45,785 bases of DNA, taken from contig JAFSXX010000039.1 in the NCBI GenBank assembly GCA_017443845.1, forward strand, positions 1 to 45,785, read 5' to 3'. Every line of letters starts with the position of its first letter. Position 1 is the first letter of the stretch. A program made the position numbers and the translations under genes. Of this stretch, positions 7,034 to 15,448 are shown piece after piece. The notes below the pieces were generated by a model that saw only the letters and a program-made list of their open reading frames with translations, did not search any database and was not told the origin of the DNA. This DNA comes from Bacteroidales bacterium (GTDB taxonomy: Bacteria; Bacteroidota; Bacteroidia; Bacteroidales; UBA932).

Positions 7034-7091
7034 TTTGCTTCAAGGCGCAGGGACAAAGTTTCTGACTGATAGCTTCACAATTCCAGACAAG

Positions 7092-7729
7092 AAGGCGCAG
7101 GAAAAGTGTTTCGGATAGCCTTCTGCGGGCTTTTGTCTGCGCCTTCGCTTGCTCTGGGCATGGTAAGGCGCACGTCGTCCCCTTCAGAGTCGTTTCTTGC
7201 GGGGCTCGCCTGCGCCTTCTGATTTTTTGCGCGCCGTAAAGCGCACGTCGTCTCCCTCAGAGCCGTTTCTTGTGGGGCTCTCCTGCGCCTTTGGTCTCTC
7301 CTCGGATGGTAAGGCGCACGTCGTCTCCCTCAGAGTCGTTTCTCGCGGGGTTCGCCTGCGCCTTCGGTTTCTCTGCGCATGGTAAGGCGCACGTCGTCCC
7401 TTTCAGAGCCGTTTCTCGCGGGGCTCTCCTGCGCCTTGTGTTTCTCTGCGCATGGTAAGGCGCACGTCGTCCCCTTCAGAGCCGTTTCTTGTGAGGCTCG
7501 CCTGCTCCTTCTGATTCTTTGCGAGCGGTAAGGCGCACGTCATCCCCTTCAGAGTCGTTTCTTGCGGGGCTTGCCTGCGCCTTGTGTTTCTCTGCGCGCG
7601 GTAAGGCGCACGTCGTCCCCTTCAGAGCCGTTTCTCGCGGGGCTTGCCTGCGCCTTCTGATTCTTTGCGCGCGGTAAGGCGCACGTCATCCCCTTCAGAG
7701 CCGTTTCTTGTGAGGCTCGCCTGCGCCTT
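7092..7729 (+). repeat. Tandem array of nine 73-bp palindromic (REP-like) units
   Basis: Nine units start at 7092, 7165, 7238, 7311, 7384, 7457, 7530, 7603 and 7676, exactly 73 bases apart. Each has an 8-base arm AAGGCGCA, a 38-base interior, the complementary arm TGCGCCTT and a 19-base linker usually ending in GGT. Arm changes are few: AAAGCGCA in the third unit and TGCTCCTT in the sixth. In most units CCCC and GGGG inside the interior can pair after a symmetric 6/6 loop, so each unit is a compound hairpin. A lone AAGGCGCA at 7052-7059 is probably a broken extra unit. The period is not a multiple of 3 and no frame stays open, so it is not a protein repeat. It ends 34 bases from the stop codon of the RAYT-like gene. 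Confidence 0.95.
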
Positions 7730-7763
7730 CTGGCTTTCGTGCCGTGGAGACACGTCTGTTGTG

Positions 7764-8663
7764 TTACTTGATATACTTGAAAATCTCTTCTTCAGGAAGC
7801 CTGACAAGAGTGGCAAGTTGCCGCTTCGAAAGCATGTGATCTTTTTTGAGCTGTTGGGCCAAAGCGAGTCTTTGCTTTGCGGTAAGCCTTCTCGTGTCAT
7901 TTTCCCCAAACATTTCCTGGCAAACAACCTTGCATACTTCGATTGCTTCTTTATCCTCAAGCGCGATACCATTAGCGATAGCCAGTGCGTTGAGGACCTC
8001 CATATCCTTATTCTTTCCGGATGACATGAATGCCCTGAAGCAGTTGTGGGTCTGGTATATGCGTTCGAAGTGCGCTACATCGACATAATTACCCGGCAAC
8101 AACAGTCCGTTGCAAACTGTCCAGTCTTGCTGGGGTATACGCCTTTTCGAATGAAGTATCCTGGCCTGCTCCCTGGCCGACAACTGCCCGATAGGGAATG
8201 GTTCCACATATCGGCCGTTACTGTCGAAACACCATATCGGAATATGATTCGCAGGCCTGAAGTACATTGAGCCAGTTCCCCATTTGTAATCGTAAGGCAT
8301 AACGATCTTACCGTCCTTGGTTGGCTGGCTGATGACGTATGTACCTACGGTTTTGAGATAACTCTCACTGTCGACAGGAATTATGGACAGTTTGAAAACT
8401 ACGCCGTCGGCTCCTCCCCGCGAGGTGACGATGTGTCTGAATATGATTATTTCACACAGAATCTTGAACCGCTGACATGATTCGTACGTTCCATAGCCGA
8501 GAACGTGCGGATGTGATTCTTCAAAAGAGAATGCCAGAACCGTAAAATCCGATAGAGCGGCAGCGATTCCGATTGCGTTGAATGTGGCATAATAGTCTGT
8601 GTCGCAAATAATAAGCCGGCGAGTCAGACGACCGTCGGCACAAAGATGAAAATATCCCTTCAT
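7764..8663 (-). CDS. REP-associated tyrosine transposase (RAYT)-like HUH/Y1 protein
   Basis: This 299-residue protein matches the layout of Y1 (IS200-like) transposases of the REP-associated kind that I know from Bacteroidetes. It has an amino start of the type KGYFHLCADGRLTRRLI. The metal-binding site is H51-P52-H53 in a VLGYGT context, where relatives have N-H-V-H-F-V-L-Y-G. The candidate catalytic Tyr109 is in TYVISQP, corresponding to YVLRNP-like motifs. MPYDYKWGTGSMYF follows, then a carboxyl helix-turn-helix (about 260-299, LTAKQRLALA and LSKRQLATLVRLPEEEIFKY). Proteins of this family nick single-stranded hairpin DNA. The ATG at 8663 has a good ribosome site, GAGGAG, 7 bases upstream; a TTG two codons earlier is less likely. 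It has its own promoter and lies between two arrays of 73-bp palindromes. The proline in the HUH motif is unusual. Family assignment is by pattern, not search. Confidence 0.78.
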   Translation of the reverse strand: MKGYFHLCADGRLTRRLIICDTDYYATFNAIGIAAALSDFTVLAFSFEESHPHVLGYGTYESCQRFKILCEIIIFRHIVTSRGGADGVVFKLSIIPVDSESYLKTVGTYVISQPTKDGKIVMPYDYKWGTGSMYFRPANHIPIWCFDSNGRYVEPFPIGQLSAREQARILHSKRRIPQQDWTVCNGLLLPGNYVDVAHFERIYQTHNCFRAFMSSGKNKDMEVLNALAIANGIALEDKEAIEVCKVVCQEMFGENDTRRLTAKQRLALAQQLKKDHMLSKRQLATLVRLPEEEIFKYIK

Positions 8664-8695
8664 AATCAAACTCCTCAGTCGTTATTTTCAGGATT

Positions 8696-8726
8696 CAAAG
8701 ATAAGTTATTTGTTTCACTTCTACAA
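8696..8726 (-). promoter_or_regulatory. Promoter of the RAYT-like gene
   Basis: On the minus strand TTG (8724-8726), a 20-base spacer and TATCTTTG (8696-8703) fit the consensus. The leader to ATG 8663 is about 25 bases and carries GAGGAG. Confidence 0.6.
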
Positions 8727-8817
8727 TACTTTCGAGAAGGTTCTGAACGATGGTGCTGATGTCGCCTTTTCAGATACACACTTGTAAAGATATTTCTCGC
8801 CGTCGTGTCGGAAAACA

Positions 8818-9017
8818 AAGGCGCACACAACCGGCTTAGGGATGCTGTTCAGAGCGATTTTGGTGCGCCTTCTTGAAGTGGCAGAAGCCGAAGGCGCACA
8901 CAACCAGCTTAAGACTGCTGTCCAGGGCAATTGTGCTGCGCCTTCTGCCTTGCCAGGCGGGGTAAGGCGCAGCGAAGTTGCGCGAAAGGGGCATTTCGCA
9001 GTGGTCACCTGCGCCTT
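8818..9017 (+). repeat. Second array: three 73-bp palindromic units
   Basis: Units start at 8818, 8891 and 8964, again exactly 73 bases apart, with the same AAGGCGCA and TGCGCCTT arms, 38-base interiors and 19-base linkers as the first array. The interiors differ from the first array and from one another but form their own inner stems, for example CACAA with TTGTG in the second unit. The third unit has TGCGCGAAA opposite TTTCGCA. The arrays lie on both sides of the RAYT-like gene. Beyond 9017 a G-rich stretch leads to cbiHC with no other gene. Confidence 0.93.
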
Positions 9018-9155
9018 CTGCCAGCGGCCTGGGGGGGAGACGATGCCTGGAAAGTCGTCCGAGGAGCGAAAGAACAAAATTCCTCGTTCAGAGGGTGGTT
9101 TCGGCGGGGGCTGCACATAGCCATTTCCAATAATTTGCGTAACTTCGCACTCAAT

Positions 9156-10622
9156 ATGAGCAAAGCGAAGATCATTGTTGCGGGAATCGGGCCCGGAAGT
9201 CCTCAGGATGTCACTCCGGCGGTTCTCGAGGCCGTCAGGCAGGCTGATGTCATTATCGGCTACAAGTACTATTTCCAGTTTGTCGAACCCTATCTCAGGA
9301 CCGGGACGGAGTGCGTCGATACCGGGATGAAAAAGGAACGTGAGAGGGCTGAGGAGGCCTTCCGTTATGCGGAGTCGGGCAAAACCGTATGCGTGGTGAG
9401 TTCCGGCGACGCCGGAATCTATGGCATGGCACCCCTCATCTGGGAAATGAAACGGGAGCGCGGCGGAAGCGAAGATATTGAAATCGAGGTACTTCCGGGA
9501 ATCAGTGCTTTCCAGAAGGCCGCGTCCCTGCTTGGGGCGCCTGTCGGACACGACTTCTGCGTAATCTCGCTTTCAGACCTGATGACCCCATGGGAGACCA
9601 TCGAGCGTCGCATCGTCGCCGCGGCGATGGCCGATTTCGTCACCGCAGTCTATAATCCCAAAAGCAACGGCCGTTACTGGCAGCTCTACCGCCTGAAGGA
9701 GATATTCCTCAAGCACCGCAGCCCCGAGACCCCTGTGGGATTCGTGCGCCAGGCCGGCCGGGATGAGCAGCAGGTAAGCGTCACGACTCTGCAATCCTTT
9801 GATCCCGAGGAGGTTGATATGTTTACGGTCGTCATCATCGGCAATTCGCAGTCCTATCTCTATCAGGGCCGTTTTATCACCCCCCGCGGTTATTACCGCA
9901 CGGCCGTCGCAACCCCCGTGACCCCCTCGACCCCCGAGAGCCGCTCAACCCCCGCGACCCCCGAAGTCTCCCCGGCCATCGGTCAGGAGATAATGATGGA
10001 GAGTTTCAGGACCATCGCCGGCGAACTCAGGCATCCCGATATCCCGATAGGCCTTAAATGGCCGCTGCTGCACGCCATCCATACCACCGCCGATTTTGAT
10101 ATGGAGAATATCCTCAAGGTCGATGAAGGTGCGGTTGAGAAACTCTATGAGGGCTTCGTGCAGAAGCGTATCGATACCATAATCACCGATGTCACGATGG
10201 CCGCCGCCGGAATCCGGAAAGGCGCCCTGCAGCGCCTCGGAGTGCAGGTGAAGTGCTACCTGTCGGATCCCAGGACCGCCGAAATGGCAAAGGAGAAGGG
10301 GATAACCCGCACCCAGGCCGGCATCCGTCTCGCGGCGGAGGAGCATCCCGGCGCCCTCTATGCCTTCGGAAACGCCCCTACGGCTCTGATGGAGCTCTGC
10401 GACCTTATCCGCAAGGGCAAGGCCTCTCCCGCAGGCATTATCGCCGCTCCGGTGGGTTTCGTGCACGTAAAGGAGAGCAAGCATATGGTGAAGCCTTTCA
10501 CCAATATTCCCAAGATAATAGTCGAGGGCCGCAAGGGTGGCAGCAACTTAGCGGCAACTCTCGTAAATTCAATACTTTGTTTCAATGACGCCGAGGCGTT
10601 AAGACCGGGCCGCGATGTGTAA
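9156..10622 (+). CDS. cbiHC: Fusion of CbiH (precorrin-3B C17-methyltransferase) and CbiC (precorrin-8 methylmutase)
   Basis: Residues 1-248 are a cobalamin-type tetrapyrrole methylase (CbiH/CobJ): IIVAGIGPGSPQDVTP, VVSSGDAGIYGMA and LPGISAFQKAAS. It adds the C17 methyl from SAM and contracts the ring. A Pro/Thr-rich linker (249-275) leads to CbiC/CobH (276-488). That part moves the methyl group from C11 to C12, with the likely catalytic His in HAIHTTADFD and the terminal GFVHVKESK segment. ATG 9156 gives MSKAKIIVAGIG, the standard start; the open frame upstream only covers repeat sequence. The reading frame overlaps cbiET by 8 bases. A weak promoter may lie near 9140 (TAACTTCG). No cobalamin riboswitch is seen upstream. 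Confidence 0.95.
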   Translation: MSKAKIIVAGIGPGSPQDVTPAVLEAVRQADVIIGYKYYFQFVEPYLRTGTECVDTGMKKERERAEEAFRYAESGKTVCVVSSGDAGIYGMAPLIWEMKRERGGSEDIEIEVLPGISAFQKAASLLGAPVGHDFCVISLSDLMTPWETIERRIVAAAMADFVTAVYNPKSNGRYWQLYRLKEIFLKHRSPETPVGFVRQAGRDEQQVSVTTLQSFDPEEVDMFTVVIIGNSQSYLYQGRFITPRGYYRTAVATPVTPSTPESRSTPATPEVSPAIGQEIMMESFRTIAGELRHPDIPIGLKWPLLHAIHTTADFDMENILKVDEGAVEKLYEGFVQKRIDTIITDVTMAAAGIRKGALQRLGVQVKCYLSDPRTAEMAKEKGITRTQAGIRLAAEEHPGALYAFGNAPTALMELCDLIRKGKASPAGIIAAPVGFVHVKESKHMVKPFTNIPKIIVEGRKGGSNLAATLVNSILCFNDAEALRPGRDV

Positions 10623-11799
10623 GAAGTTTACAGTCATCGGCCTGACGGACGGCCGCAAGCCCTTCTTCCCGCCGGAAGTGCTCGAAGCAATCGCAGCTGC
10701 GAGTGTCTTTTCGGGGGGCAGGCGCCATCACGAAATAGTGGAGCATCTCCTTCCGCTTGGCGCGCAGTGGATAGAGATTACCGTCCCCCTCGAGGCGGTA
10801 TTCGAGCAGTACGCCGCACACCGCGAGGTGGTGGTTTTCGCCTCCGGCGACCCCCTTTTCTATGGCTTTGCGGGCACACTCAGGCGTCGGCTTCCGGAGG
10901 CTGAGATAAAAGTTTATCCGGCCCCCAATTCCCTCCAGATGCTTGCCCACAGGATGTGTCTGCCATACGAGCAGATGCGTTGCGTATCGCTTACCGGCCG
11001 CCCCTGGGATGCCTTCGACAAGGCTCTGATAACGGGTGAGATTCTCATAGGCGCCCTGACGGACCGCCATAAAACCCCTTCGATGATCGCATCGAGGATG
11101 CTCGAGTACGGTTATGACAATTACCGTATGACAGTGGGGGAGTCCCTCGGGAACGAGGCCGAGGAGCGGGTTCGAAGCCTCTCTCTTGCAGAGGCCTCCG
11201 AAACGGAATTCGCCTTTCCCAACTGTCTGATACTTGAGCGCCTGCGCGGGAATCCCCGCCCCTTCGGCATCCCCGAATCGGAGTTCGAGTTGCTCGACGG
11301 CCGCGCAAAGATGATAACCAAGATGCCGATCCGCCTTCTTACGCTCCAGGCCCTGGAGTTGAGGCGCCGTCATTCTTTCTGGGACATAGGCTTCTGCACC
11401 GGCTCCGTCTCTATCGAGGCTCGCCTTCAATTCCCTGATCTTCAGATAACTGCCTTTGAGGTGAGAGAAGCTGGCAGGCAATTGATGGAGGCCAATTCCC
11501 GACGTTTCGGCGCTCCCGGAATCAATGCGGTGATCGGCGATTTCATGACGGCCGGCCTGGATTCCCTCCCCGCGCCGGATGCCGTTTTCATAGGCGGCCA
11601 CGGAGGGCGGCTGAAGGAGATGCTGCGCCGCATCGACGAGGTCCTGCTTCCAGGCGGCGCGATAGTCTTCAACAGCGTCAGCCCTGAGAGCAAAGCGCAG
11701 TTCGAGGAGGGCATAGAGGCCCTTGGGCGCCATATTACCGGCCGGACTCACGTGGCCATAGATGATTTCAATCCTATAGATATACTTCGTGCGGAATGA
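10615..11799 (+). CDS. cbiET: Fusion of CbiE and CbiT (precorrin-6B C5,15-methyltransferase, decarboxylating; CobL-like)
   Basis: This 394-residue protein joins CbiE (about 1-210), a tetrapyrrole methylase with VVVFASGDPLFYGFAGTL and VYPAPNSLQMLAHR, to CbiT (about 215-394). CbiT is a Rossmann methyltransferase with SAM loop DIGFCTGSVSIEA and later DAVFIGGHGG. Together they methylate C5 and C15 and remove the acetate carboxyl at C12, as CobL does. In the SAM loop, F-C replaces the more usual A-G. The gene starts inside the end of cbiHC (8-base overlap) and its stop overlaps the cbiGF start by 4 bases, so the four genes are likely translated in a coupled way. Confidence 0.95.
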   Translation: MCKKFTVIGLTDGRKPFFPPEVLEAIAAASVFSGGRRHHEIVEHLLPLGAQWIEITVPLEAVFEQYAAHREVVVFASGDPLFYGFAGTLRRRLPEAEIKVYPAPNSLQMLAHRMCLPYEQMRCVSLTGRPWDAFDKALITGEILIGALTDRHKTPSMIASRMLEYGYDNYRMTVGESLGNEAEERVRSLSLAEASETEFAFPNCLILERLRGNPRPFGIPESEFELLDGRAKMITKMPIRLLTLQALELRRRHSFWDIGFCTGSVSIEARLQFPDLQITAFEVREAGRQLMEANSRRFGAPGINAVIGDFMTAGLDSLPAPDAVFIGGHGGRLKEMLRRIDEVLLPGGAIVFNSVSPESKAQFEEGIEALGRHITGRTHVAIDDFNPIDILRAE

Positions 11800-13646
11800 G
11801 CAATACTGTAATAATTCTTGTCTCGGAATCGTCGCTTCCGATGGCGCAGGCCCTGCAAAAAGAACTCTCTTCGCGGAACCGGATGGGCGAAGATTCGGTA
11901 ACCATCTGCGCCAAAGATGAAAAACCGGGCTGTAAGGCCATCGGGCCCTATTCGGCCTATCTCAGGGAGCACTGGGGCGAGCTCGACGAAGTCATTTTCA
12001 TCGGAGCGCTCGGGATATGCGTCAGGAGCATCTCCACGGCCCTTAAGAATAAATACCGCGACCCCGCCGTGGTCTGCATCGACAGCACCGGCCGTTTCGT
12101 GATTCCGGTGGTTTCGGGCCACATCGGAGGGGCCAATGACCTCGCACGCCGCATTTCCGGCATAGTGGGAGGGGAGGCCGTGGTCACCACGCAGAGCGAC
12201 AACGAGGGACTCTGGGCCCTCGACACCCTCGCACAGCGTTTCGGATGGCGCACCGATGCCACGCCGCAGCAGATGCAGAAGGCCGTTTTCGCCTTCGTGG
12301 GGAAGCACCCGACGGCACTGCTCCTCGAAGTCAGGGACAAAGGCACGGCGGAGCTCGAGCGCACCCTTCCACCTCACGTCAAGTGCTTTACCCGTGCTGA
12401 AGATATCGATCCCAAGGCCTTCGAACTGCTCCTGGCCGTCACTCCGTTTATCCATACGGATCTTGCCGGAGCTCTTCCGTCCTTGTTTTTCCGTCCGGCC
12501 GTCCTGCACGTCGGAATAGGTTGCCGCCGCGATTGCGACGCGGAAGGAATTCCTGAGTATATTGACTCATATCTGCGCTCGCAATTCCTTGATCCCCTGT
12601 CGGTTGCATCTGTCGGGACGGTGGAGCTGAAAAAAGACGAGCCGCTGATGAAGGCAATGCTCGAAAAATGGCCCCAGGCCTCTTTTTCCGTCCATTCCGC
12701 CGCCGAACTCGATGCGGTGGAAGTCCCCAATCCTTCCGACAAAGCCTTCGAGGCGGCGGGTACCCACGGAGTAGCGGAGGCTGCCGCCATACTTGATGCC
12801 GCAGGAGGCCCGCTGCTGGTTGAGAAACAGAAGTGCAAACTGACTGATGGCAACGACTTTACATTCGCTCTTGCCCGCGATGCCTCCTCACTGCGCGGAG
12901 GCCATATCGAGATAGTGGGCGCGGGCCCGGGAGACCCCGAACTGGTGTCGGTCCGTGGCAAGCGTTTCCTGCAGGAGGCCGACCTGATTCTCTATGCGGG
13001 CAGCCTGGTGCCTGTCGAGCTCACCTGGTATGCCAAGCCCGGTGCCGTGGTGCGGAGTTCCGCGAGCCTCGATCTGGAGGAGCAGTTCGCCCTTATGAAG
13101 GAATTCTACGACCGCGGCCTGCTGGTGGTGCGTCTCCATACCGGCGACCCGTGCATCTATGGCGCCATCCAGGAGCAGATGGCTTTCTTCGACCGCTACG
13201 GAATGAGTTACCACATCACTCCCGGCATCTCCGCATTCCAGGCGGCTGCCGCCGCACTTCGCTCGCAATTTACTATTCCTGAGAAGGTTCAGACCATTAT
13301 CCTCACCCGCGGGGAGGGCCGTACTCCCATGCCGGAGAAAGAGCAGCTCCATAAGCTGGCGCAGTCGCAGAGCACTATGTGCATCTACCTGAGCGCCGCG
13401 ATAGCGGAGGAGGTTCAGGCCGAACTGCTTCAGGCCTATCCGCCCGAGACTCCTGTCGCAGCCTGCTACAAGCTGACCTGGAAGGAGGAACGGATCTATC
13501 GGGGGCAGCTCCGTGATCTGGCCAGGATAGTCAGGGAGAATAATCTTACCCTGACCACCCTGTTGGTGGTAGGCGAGGCCATCGATAACCGCAAGGGACT
13601 GTCGCGCCTCTATGCCCACGAATTCAAACACCTTTTCCGCCAATGA
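11796..13646 (+). CDS. cbiGF: Fusion of CbiG (cobalt-precorrin-5A hydrolase) and CbiF (precorrin-4 C11-methyltransferase)
   Basis: Residues 1 to about 365 are CbiG. Marks are IFIGALGICVRSISTALKNK, VIPVVSGHIGGANDLARRI and, after the middle, LHVGIGCRRDC. CbiG opens the delta-lactone and releases acetaldehyde in the anaerobic pathway. From about 372 (HIEIVGAGPGDPELVSVRG) a full CbiF/CobM methylase follows, with ADLILYAGSLV, RLHTGDPCIYGAIQEQ and ITPGISAFQAAAAA; it methylates C11. The CbiG domain shows that the route is the anaerobic (early cobalt) one. The ATG overlaps the cbiET stop, and its own stop overlaps the cbiJD start, each by 4 bases. Confidence 0.96.
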   Translation: MSNTVIILVSESSLPMAQALQKELSSRNRMGEDSVTICAKDEKPGCKAIGPYSAYLREHWGELDEVIFIGALGICVRSISTALKNKYRDPAVVCIDSTGRFVIPVVSGHIGGANDLARRISGIVGGEAVVTTQSDNEGLWALDTLAQRFGWRTDATPQQMQKAVFAFVGKHPTALLLEVRDKGTAELERTLPPHVKCFTRAEDIDPKAFELLLAVTPFIHTDLAGALPSLFFRPAVLHVGIGCRRDCDAEGIPEYIDSYLRSQFLDPLSVASVGTVELKKDEPLMKAMLEKWPQASFSVHSAAELDAVEVPNPSDKAFEAAGTHGVAEAAAILDAAGGPLLVEKQKCKLTDGNDFTFALARDASSLRGGHIEIVGAGPGDPELVSVRGKRFLQEADLILYAGSLVPVELTWYAKPGAVVRSSASLDLEEQFALMKEFYDRGLLVVRLHTGDPCIYGAIQEQMAFFDRYGMSYHITPGISAFQAAAAALRSQFTIPEKVQTIILTRGEGRTPMPEKEQLHKLAQSQSTMCIYLSAAIAEEVQAELLQAYPPETPVAACYKLTWKEERIYRGQLRDLARIVRENNLTLTTLLVVGEAIDNRKGLSRLYAHEFKHLFRQ

Positions 13647-15448
13647 TACTTATCCTCGGTGGCACTACGGAAGGGCGGATTGCGGTGCAGGTCGCCGATT
13701 CCGCCGGCTCCCCCTACTTTTACTCTACAAGAGGAGAGGGGCAGAGCATCGAGTGCCATAACGGGAGACATATAACCGGGGCGATGGATGCCGGGGCTAT
13801 GGCCTCTTTCTGCGAGGAAAACGGCATCCGGCTGCTGGTGGACGCAGCCCATCCCTTTGCGGCGCTGCTGCATTCGACGGTGGCCGAAGTCTCTGACAGG
13901 CTGGGCATTCCGGCCGTGCGCCTCGAACGGATCTATCCTTCGGAAGAGGAACTCGACGGGGTGGTATGGTGCGACGGGTATGCCGATGCCATCACCCGCC
14001 TCGAATCGGCGGGGGTGGAGAAACTGCTGGCTCTGACGGGTGTCCAGACCATAGCTGCATTGAAGCCCTGGTGGGACCATCACGAATGCATCTTCCGTAT
14101 CCTGAATCGCGAGGAGTCCTTAAAAATAGCTGAGGATCACGGAATTGACCGTTCGTCACTGGCTTTCTGGGACGAAGACAGCGACGCCGGAATCATACAA
14201 AAATACCATCCGCAGGCGATCCTGACCAAGGAAAGCGGCCGGACGGGAGGCTTTATGGAGAAGTACGAGGCGGCCCGCGGCGCGGGAATTCCCCTTTATG
14301 TGGTACGCCGCCCCACTTTGCCCGAAGGCTTCATAACGGTGACGGGCAAAAACGGCCTTCGAAAGGCGATAGAGCGCCTTGTACCGGGATTTTTCCCTCT
14401 CCGCAGCGGCTTCACGACGGGAGCCTGCGCGACGGCGGCCTCGAAGGCAGCCCTGCTGGCCCTCCTCGGCCGCCCAGTGGGAGACACAGTCAAGATAACG
14501 TTCCCGGACGGCGAATCTCTCGCCCTTCCCGTCGAATCGTATGAAATCAGTACCGGTTCGGCCTCCGCAACGGTCATCAAAGATGCCGGCGACGATCCGG
14601 ACGTCACCAACGGCCGCGCCATAGTGGCGACAGTCGCCTTCAGCACCGGGCCCGGGATCCATTTCCTGCAGGGTGAGGGAGTCGGACGAGTAACCCTCCC
14701 CGGCCTGGGCCTGCCTGTCGGCGGCCCGGCTATCAACAAAGTTCCCCGCGAAATGATCACCCGCGAACTCTCGTCCATCTACGATGGGGGCCTTGATGTC
14801 ACGATTTCAGTCCCGGGAGGGCGCGAGCTGGCCCAAAAGACATTCAACCCCAAACTGGGTGTCGTGGACGGCATCTCCATAATCGGTACCTCCGGAATCG
14901 TGATGCCTTTCTCCAGCGAGGCGTTCGTGGATGCCATACGCAAGGAGATGGAGGTGGCCGTGGCAATAGGCTGCAGCCACATAGTCATCAATTCCGGAGC
15001 GAAGAGCGAGGCCTTTCTCAAGAGCAGGTTTCCCGAACTCCCTCCGCAGGCCTTTATCCACTACGGCAATTATATCGGAGAAACCCTCAGGATAGCGGCC
15101 GGGATGCATATCCCCGAAGTTACGATGGGCATAATGATCGGCAAGGCCGTAAAACTGGCCGAAGGGCATCTCGATACCCACAGCCGCAGCGTGGTGATGA
15201 ACCGCGACTTCCTTAAATCGCTCGCTTCCGATGCCGGATGCTCCGATGCGGCCTTGGAGATTATCGGAGGAATGAGCCTTGCGCGGGAGCTGTGGAAAGG
15301 CCTTCCCGAAAGCGATTCCCGCCTCTTTTTCGATGCCCTTCTGGAACGCTGCAGGAGGGTCTGTTCCAGGGCTTTCCAGTCAGAAGGATTTGCTGGAAAA
15401 TTCGAAATTCTCCTGATGGATGAGGAGGGGAATACGATATTGTCGTGA
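13643..15448 (+). CDS. cbiJD: Fusion of CbiJ/CobK (precorrin-6A reductase) and CbiD (C1-methyltransferase)
   Basis: Residues 1-250 match the reductase: start MILILGGTTEGR, VDAAHPFAALLHST, ALTGVQTIAALKPWW and ILTKESGRTGG. It reduces cobalt-precorrin-6A with NADH or NADPH. From residue 253 (RSGFTTGACATAASKAAL) a complete CbiD follows, with ITFPDGESL, DAGDDPDVTNG, GTSGIVMPFSSEAF and MGIMIGKAVKLAEGHLDTHS. CbiD methylates C1 in the anaerobic pathway. This is the last gene of the overlapping four-gene set. No clear terminator follows; the next promoter begins 9 bases after the stop. Confidence 0.96.
   Translation: MILILGGTTEGRIAVQVADSAGSPYFYSTRGEGQSIECHNGRHITGAMDAGAMASFCEENGIRLLVDAAHPFAALLHSTVAEVSDRLGIPAVRLERIYPSEEELDGVVWCDGYADAITRLESAGVEKLLALTGVQTIAALKPWWDHHECIFRILNREESLKIAEDHGIDRSSLAFWDEDSDAGIIQKYHPQAILTKESGRTGGFMEKYEAARGAGIPLYVVRRPTLPEGFITVTGKNGLRKAIERLVPGFFPLRSGFTTGACATAASKAALLALLGRPVGDTVKITFPDGESLALPVESYEISTGSASATVIKDAGDDPDVTNGRAIVATVAFSTGPGIHFLQGEGVGRVTLPGLGLPVGGPAINKVPREMITRELSSIYDGGLDVTISVPGGRELAQKTFNPKLGVVDGISIIGTSGIVMPFSSEAFVDAIRKEMEVAVAIGCSHIVINSGAKSEAFLKSRFPELPPQAFIHYGNYIGETLRIAAGMHIPEVTMGIMIGKAVKLAEGHLDTHSRSVVMNRDFLKSLASDAGCSDAALEIIGGMSLARELWKGLPESDSRLFFDALLERCRRVCSRAFQSEGFAGKFEILLMDEEGNTILS

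Follow-up and report, generated by a model that had tools for sequence, protein, structure and literature searches.

Paired palindromic units at two spacings beside RAYT-like Y1/HUH genes of Bacteroidales

The DNA analysed here, hereafter the window, is the whole 45,785-nucleotide stretch of contig JAFSXX010000039.1 from a Bacteroidales bacterium (assembly GCA_017443845.1). It carries a gene for a RAYT-like protein (REP-associated tyrosine transposase; REP, repetitive extragenic palindrome) of the Y1/HUH type, located between two arrays of palindromic units. With a probability of about 0.7, gene and units represent a REP/RAYT-type system whose substrate would be a fixed-length paired dyad element, expanded into arrays in this genome. 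The evidence consists of the architecture of the loci, the covariation of unit arms with the protein, the concordance of unit spacing with protein clade, the intact catalytic residues and the dispersed copies. The original prediction, made from the window sequence, had interpreted the locus as a REP-RAYT system with a long compound hairpin. Its observation was confirmed, and its interpretation was supported as to the RAYT-type system and not as to the hairpin. The pair of units as basic element, the paralogues with other arms and the spacing classes following protein clade go beyond that account. The features of the locus are as follows.

7764..8669, minus strand: RAYT-like Y1/HUH gene, 301 amino acids; seven paralogues in the genome, the closest at 48%
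8505..8513, minus strand: HUH motif H53-P54-H55; both histidines in 18/18, 68/68 and 97/97 aligned proteins
8325..8339, minus strand: catalytic-type tyrosine Y111 with Q115 (Y-x3-Q); tyrosine in 97/97
8094..8261, minus strand: inter-domain connector F137 to P192; length follows spacing class
7773..7886, minus strand: C-terminal three-helix segment, possible helix-turn-helix; predicted helices, weak PDB matches
7092..7729, no strand: nine-unit array (motif search) of 54-bp dyads, step 73 bp; units begin at 7092, 7165, 7238, 7311, 7384, 7457, 7530, 7603, 7676
8818..9017, no strand: three-unit array of 54-bp dyads, step 73 bp; units begin at 8818, 8891, 8964
7042..7049, no strand: lone AAGGCGCA arm with no partner at unit distance, possibly a decayed unit

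The protein, its units and its paralogues

The unit of the window is a 54-bp inverted repeat, AAGGCGCA-N38-TGCGCCTT. Perfect matches to AAGGCGCA-N30-45-TGCGCCTT occur ten times in the window, every one 54 bp long, and were absent from each of 100 shuffles. When up to two arm mismatches were allowed, 12 units were found, nine on one side of the gene and three on the other, as originally counted. The arms are not identical in all of them, as had been claimed, since 2/12 units (7238 and 7457) deviate by one mismatch each. The arrays had also been described as phase-locked; this applies to the exact 73-bp step inside each array and not to the two arrays relative to each other, which are out of phase across the gene (8818 − 7676 = 1142, remainder 47 modulo 73). 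The interior of the first unit of the nine-unit array (7092) is unlike those of the remaining eight, and the interior of the third unit of the three-unit array (8964) is unlike those of the first two. The listed start codon of the gene is TTG, with an ATG two codons later. Genes for cobalamin biosynthesis, named by eye from translations, lie at 8931–15448, adjoining the array.

The structure of the window protein was predicted with a pLDDT (predicted local distance difference test) of 92.8, and its first fold match is E. coli TnpA_REP bound to a REP hairpin. Predicted structure and fold matches thus agree on the Y1/HUH fold of RAYT / TnpA_REP proteins, which the original prediction had named as a check. 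The HUH and tyrosine motifs noted there (H53-P-H55 and Y111) are present and invariant in alignments of 8, 18, 68 and 97 rows, so that the two histidines and a single catalytic tyrosine are retained in 97/97 proteins. The residue at position Y+4 is Q in 18/97 proteins, including the window protein, and N in 79/97. C-terminal to the HUH domain lie the connector and a second, helical domain, for which the model of residues 190–301 has a pLDDT of 79.5. The structural matches of the latter are weak and none is decisive; the suggested carboxyl helix-turn-helix is therefore plausible from the predicted helices, without a decisive PDB match for this part. The five of the seven paralogues that were scanned all match the REP-associated tyrosine transposase model NF047646 weakly (12–45 bits, best E 1e-11), and 2/5 pass the Pfam score for Y1_Tnp. 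These matches, the structure and the dispersed units support a RAYT-type Y1/HUH protein with its own repeat family.

The window genome (2.06 Mb, 57 contigs) contains 44 perfect AAGGCGCA units dispersed over five contigs, the window contig included, which answers the proposed whole-genome search. An inverted-repeat family of its own beside the gene and dispersed in the genome is thus present, as for RAYT / TnpA_REP. In the fetched stretches of this genome, 47 units were listed at up to two arm mismatches (one further chance-like match was dropped), with all steps inside an array at 73 bp but one gap of 75. Neighbours with unlike interiors still lie 73 bp apart (C5 25937/26010; C17 274/347/420; window 7092/7165 and 8891/8964), and plain duplication therefore does not explain the spacing. 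The contig ends of C5 (L024) and C38 (L026) fall inside alike AAGGCGCA arrays, which are probably one long array split by the assembly.

Across the family, AAGGCGCA units were found in 5/199 genomes: 44 in the window genome, 5 in G307, 1 in G461 and one each in G330 and G381, where the single matches look like chance. The comparison of 22 interior types (17 from the window genome, 4 from G307, 1 from G461) revealed a symmetric half-site common to both unit halves. The arm is followed by G and S, interior position 5 is A, positions 10–13 form a C/pyrimidine stretch and positions 14–17 read A-G-A-R, with A or G at position 16 in 44/44 half-sites. The inner core reads CCYYAGAR in AAGGCGCA units and is weaker clade-wide, with CCYY at 10–7 and AA at 4–3 from the centre. 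The 54-bp unit with its dyad-symmetric half-site and conserved core accordingly resembles a REPIN in consisting of two inverted REPs at fixed length.

The seven paralogues in the window genome are flanked by arm sequences different from AAGGCGCA. For five of them, specific arms were found on either side of the gene: TGACGTCG (72 bp), CGGAGCGC (71), TCGGTGAG (51), GGAGACCT (51) and ATGGACGG (51). The other two have them on one side, CCCTCTGG (51, upstream) and CGTCGTCC (52, downstream). A profile search detected relatives of the protein in 118/199 family genomes. At the fetched loci (99, of which 97 different), an exact inverted arm pair common to both flanks was present in 40/99, compared with 0/990 shuffles and 0/82 other stretches. 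Within the window clade (46 proteins), arm similarity rises with protein identity (Spearman 0.27, 0/1000 permutations as high); it is 6.8 of 8 at 70–97% protein identity, 5.3 at 60–70% and 3.9–4.4 below 60%. The best relative in G307 (42%) has flanking TGCGGCAG pairs with a spacing of 72 bp, and these are found dispersed through G307 as well; among 40 genomes of the genus, the TGCGGCAG pattern occurs in two, with 12 units in G307 and 4 in G461.

The nearest relative found, L140 (64%), keeps the AAGGCGCA pair at 73 bp upstream and has a decayed pair at 73 bp downstream. It adjoins the same cobalamin gene as the window (by eye), and that flank matches by nucleotide. Units are thus linked to the gene in relatives, as the original prediction demanded, and the arms track the protein. 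Locus L141 also lies, apparently and by eye, among cobalamin genes.

Pairs of units, spacing classes and signs of mobility

A scan for unit pairs with floating spacing (40 to 99 bp) in the flanks of the fetched loci detected pairs in 109/188 flanks, compared with 0/188 shuffled flanks and 6/154 other stretches. Their spacing falls into two classes: 59 pairs at 51–52 bp, 47 at 70–73 bp and 3 elsewhere. A second scan covered named genomes (the best 80 of 96 relatives), which belong to uncultured gut Bacteroidia, many from ruminants and horses; its records are partly identical to those of the first. Here, 86/90 pairs were spaced at 71–73 bp, as expected for the window clade. In the merged scans without identical pairs, 182/188 pairs belong to the 51–52 or 70–73 bp class. 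Exactly two units make up 157/182 detected flanking arrays, and long arrays, of which the window genome has examples, are exceptional. Two units per side are the usual form in this gut Bacteroidales family, which is a new observation.

When the spacing class was placed on a quick tree of 97 proteins (75 classed), a single change was sufficient, compared with a shuffled mean of 24.8 (0/500 as low). The connector F137–P192 comprises 51–55 residues in 33/33 proteins of the 70–73 bp class and 41–45 residues in 41/42 proteins of the 51–52 bp class, the remaining one having 77. It is thus about 10 residues longer in the class with longer spacing, and for the remaining segments the mean difference is about one residue or nil. 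The mean spacings, 51.4 and 72.1 bp, correspond to 4.99 and 7.00 turns at 10.3 bp and to 4.89 and 6.87 turns at 10.5; they may therefore reflect whole helical turns, a comparison with two values behind it. Taken together, arms and spacing suggest that the enzyme may recognise its DNA partners by both sequence and distance.

In the longer class (108 pairs), inverted repeats extend past the outer arms by about 12 bp, with the majority letters TTYYCGCCAAAG. The inverted match is 0.54–0.78 at positions 1–12, compared with 0.31–0.44 when permuted; it is 0.31–0.37 at positions 13–16 and at the permuted level from 17. Among 42 pairs of the shorter class, these repeats cover about 6 bp. In G307, two copies of the AAGGCGCA type match at 85% over 135 bp; the match begins one base ahead of the first arm, and the two stretches share no match beyond it. 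Loci L071 and L075, with 98% identical proteins, are alike between −376 and +15 relative to the gene and diverge beyond this interval. The left end of the match is at the upstream pair (by eye), and the upstream pair and the gene are all that they have in common. L075 lacks a pair directly downstream of its gene, but a further copy is present some 2 kb off, where the contig ends. These comparisons suggest that pairs, perhaps pair plus gene, may move, L071 and L075 being a possible case of a whole-element move, for which a rearrangement is also possible. No convincing target-site duplication was seen around the pairs.

Several sites are shared by more than one repeat family. On C17 of the window genome (L025:620-800), a AAGGCGCA array directly adjoins the array of another paralogue (TCGTCCCA/GGGACGA, 52 bp), and different families therefore occupy the same intergenic sites. 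On C12 (L029:9516-10526), two long arrays lie side by side, a 52-bp GGGACGA/TCGTCCC and a 51-bp GGTGAGC/GCTCAC array, with the nearest family gene about 5 kb away. In G307, the second part of the pair has very different arms at L130:1946-2078 and L131:1960-2093; those of L130 are CAGTCAAGCGC/GCGCTTGACTG (by eye). At L129 (G307 C4:1-4000), several intergenic repeat families, e.g., a GGGCACAAAAAGG-type repeat, seem nested around pairs.

Mode of recognition and alternative explanations

In a classical REPtron, the protein would read each unit solely as a single-stranded hairpin, and the regular spacing would be a by-product of tandem duplication. The best fold match, TnpA_REP with a REP hairpin, is in line with this, and so are the tandem REPIN clusters reported beside RAYT genes of Pseudomonas fluorescens SBW25 (PMC3116915) and the pairing of the outer arms with each other in 15/17 predicted unit folds. 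However, unit interiors have about the same tendency to fold as shuffled sequences (mean z −0.42 for 17 unit types, with one unit at −3.2). Summed over 182 pairs, the arm of the second unit mismatches its own partner at 134 positions and that of the other unit at 140; for the arm of the first unit, the counts are 102 and 79, respectively. With interiors that are no clearly better folders and arms that match their own unit no better than the neighbouring one, the long compound hairpin of the original prediction was not borne out.

The two-against-two splits point in the same direction, 8 being compensated within the unit and 32 not, where chance would be one to two, although this test is limited by the selection of pairs for alike arms. 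The compensatory changes in which the SBW25 REPINs are reportedly rich (PMC3116915) were thus not common in these pairs. The GT[AG]G foot was present at 36/728 feet, compared with a shuffled mean of 53.7. Units with unlike interiors at exactly 73 bp and the persistence of the spacing across proteins with diverged arms also speak against a REPtron of the classical kind, which we regard as unlikely. The arm mismatch pattern points to a read-out of sequence, as of a double-stranded dyad, and would also be compatible with a sequence-specific hairpin reader.

It is about equally improbable that the protein is a domesticated regulator, which binds the paired dyads in the role of operators or sites of chromosome organisation and has ceased to move them. 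Most pairs do lie within a few hundred bp of the gene, their fixed spacing is near whole helical turns, and the C-terminal segment weakly resembles helix-turn-helix domains. The flank is common to 23/24 locus pairs at ≥90% protein identity (pairs at ≥99.9% were left out, and some records are in both sets), but to 10/25 at 80–90% and 26/132 at 70–80%. The invariance of the HUH and tyrosine residues, the dispersal and copying of units and pairs, and the definite ends of the pair with their inverted repeats also disagree with the loss of mobility. An unrelated tandem repeat around a Y1 gene by chance, for which one could cite the tandem arrays elsewhere in the window genome with no such gene adjoining, is refuted by the linkage on both sides at dozens of loci with controls near zero and by the covariation of arms and protein.

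The reading as a REP/RAYT-type system with a paired dyad substrate would imply the following mechanism. A two-domain Y1/HUH protein, with a nickase-type domain and a C-terminal helical domain, would act on its own repeat family. Its substrate would be two dyad units at a set distance, 70–73 bp in the window clade and 51–52 bp among the other family members sampled, and each half-site combines a fast-evolving arm matched to the local protein with a weaker inner core. The protein would recognise arms and spacing, and the HUH and tyrosine residues would nick and rejoin at the element, so that the pair is copied or moved as a unit. The arrays of nine and three units may have been built up by several rounds of copying in register or by unequal exchange involving the 73-bp module. 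Binding, nicking and copying are thus inferred, as is a double-stranded read-out, the fixed spacing presumably reflecting binding on one face of the DNA.

A number of points weigh against this reading. No pair was detected at the cut-off in 79/188 flanks, the relatives L141 and L142 (59 and 58%) gave none in the second scan, 22/97 proteins are without a spacing class, and no clear outer inverted repeats were seen by eye at the window's own arrays. As the two classes represent one evolutionary split, there is a single change behind the association of connector length with spacing. G307 and G461 carry AAGGCGCA units with no close orthologue in the assembly (best relatives 42% and 24%), so that units do not occur strictly in genomes with the window protein, a check that the original prediction had proposed. 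The window protein has no match to Pfam and NCBIfam models at E ≤ 10, and the 18 members of its clade gave no match to a RAYT model at E ≤ 1.

A more specific and tentative proposal, which we consider possible though rather doubtful, is that the enzyme accepts dyad pairs only when they are separated by five or seven turns of double-stranded DNA, a length that the inter-domain connector would determine, and that the pair, about 150 bp long and bounded by inverted repeats, constitutes a miniature mobile element. If so, this would be an HUH system assembling on double-stranded DNA before cutting single strands. The eight members of the family in a single 2-Mb genome, together with more than a hundred in relatives, provide a natural experiment, with many arms on a constant geometry. 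As the classes also split together with the connector on one branch, the read-out of sequence and that of length are separable and can be tested.

Comparison with known systems

The closest known systems are TnpA_REP/RAYT, the little-described subclass 2.6 of Bacteroidetes and REPINs. IS200/IS605 transposases are small one-domain proteins with a hairpin at each end of the element; here, a two-domain protein is found with two dyads per end. The likeness to these transposons (IS608, ISDra2) consists in the Y1 transposase fold and in a coding sequence bordered by palindromes (PMC8266576). The TnpA_REP/RAYT proteins of E. coli and Pseudomonas (groups 2 and 3) are alike in Y1/HUH fold and catalytic residues, in the bracketing of the gene by inverted repeats, in a repeat family for each protein with dispersed copies, and in the coevolution of protein and repeat, as far as described in PMC8266576. 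The present proteins differ in their length of about 300 residues and extra C-terminal domain, and their repeats in having no GTAG-type foot and in the pairing of units at two spacings.

The family is called RAYT-like, a new variant and not a member of the canonical group, because two canonical marks fail: the GT[AG]G foot and the curated model NF047646, whose cut-off of 80 bits was reached neither by the window protein nor by the paralogues scanned or the 18 clade members. The GT[AG]G tetranucleotide at the repeat foot marks subclasses 2.2, 2.4, 2.5, 2.7 and 2.8 (PMC6006769), under which the family is therefore not filed. Subclass 2.6 of tnpA_REP, described in 2018, is mostly found in Bacteroidetes; its repeats, found by eye, have no GT[AG]G, show atypical secondary structures and have copies elsewhere in the genome, and its table row gives 179, apparently the length in amino acids (PMC6006769). 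The likeness of the present family to it consists in the phylum and the missing foot, not in a sequence placement, and the account of the subclass in that source makes, in the part concerned, no mention of paired units or spacing classes.

The REPINs of P. fluorescens SBW25 are likewise built as two inverted REPs forming a unit of near-constant length, and they are also found in ordered tandem clusters, one beside each RAYT (PMC3116915). They are reported there as mostly single and with common compensatory changes, whereas in the family described here there is no excess of compensation and pairs at a fixed distance are the rule.
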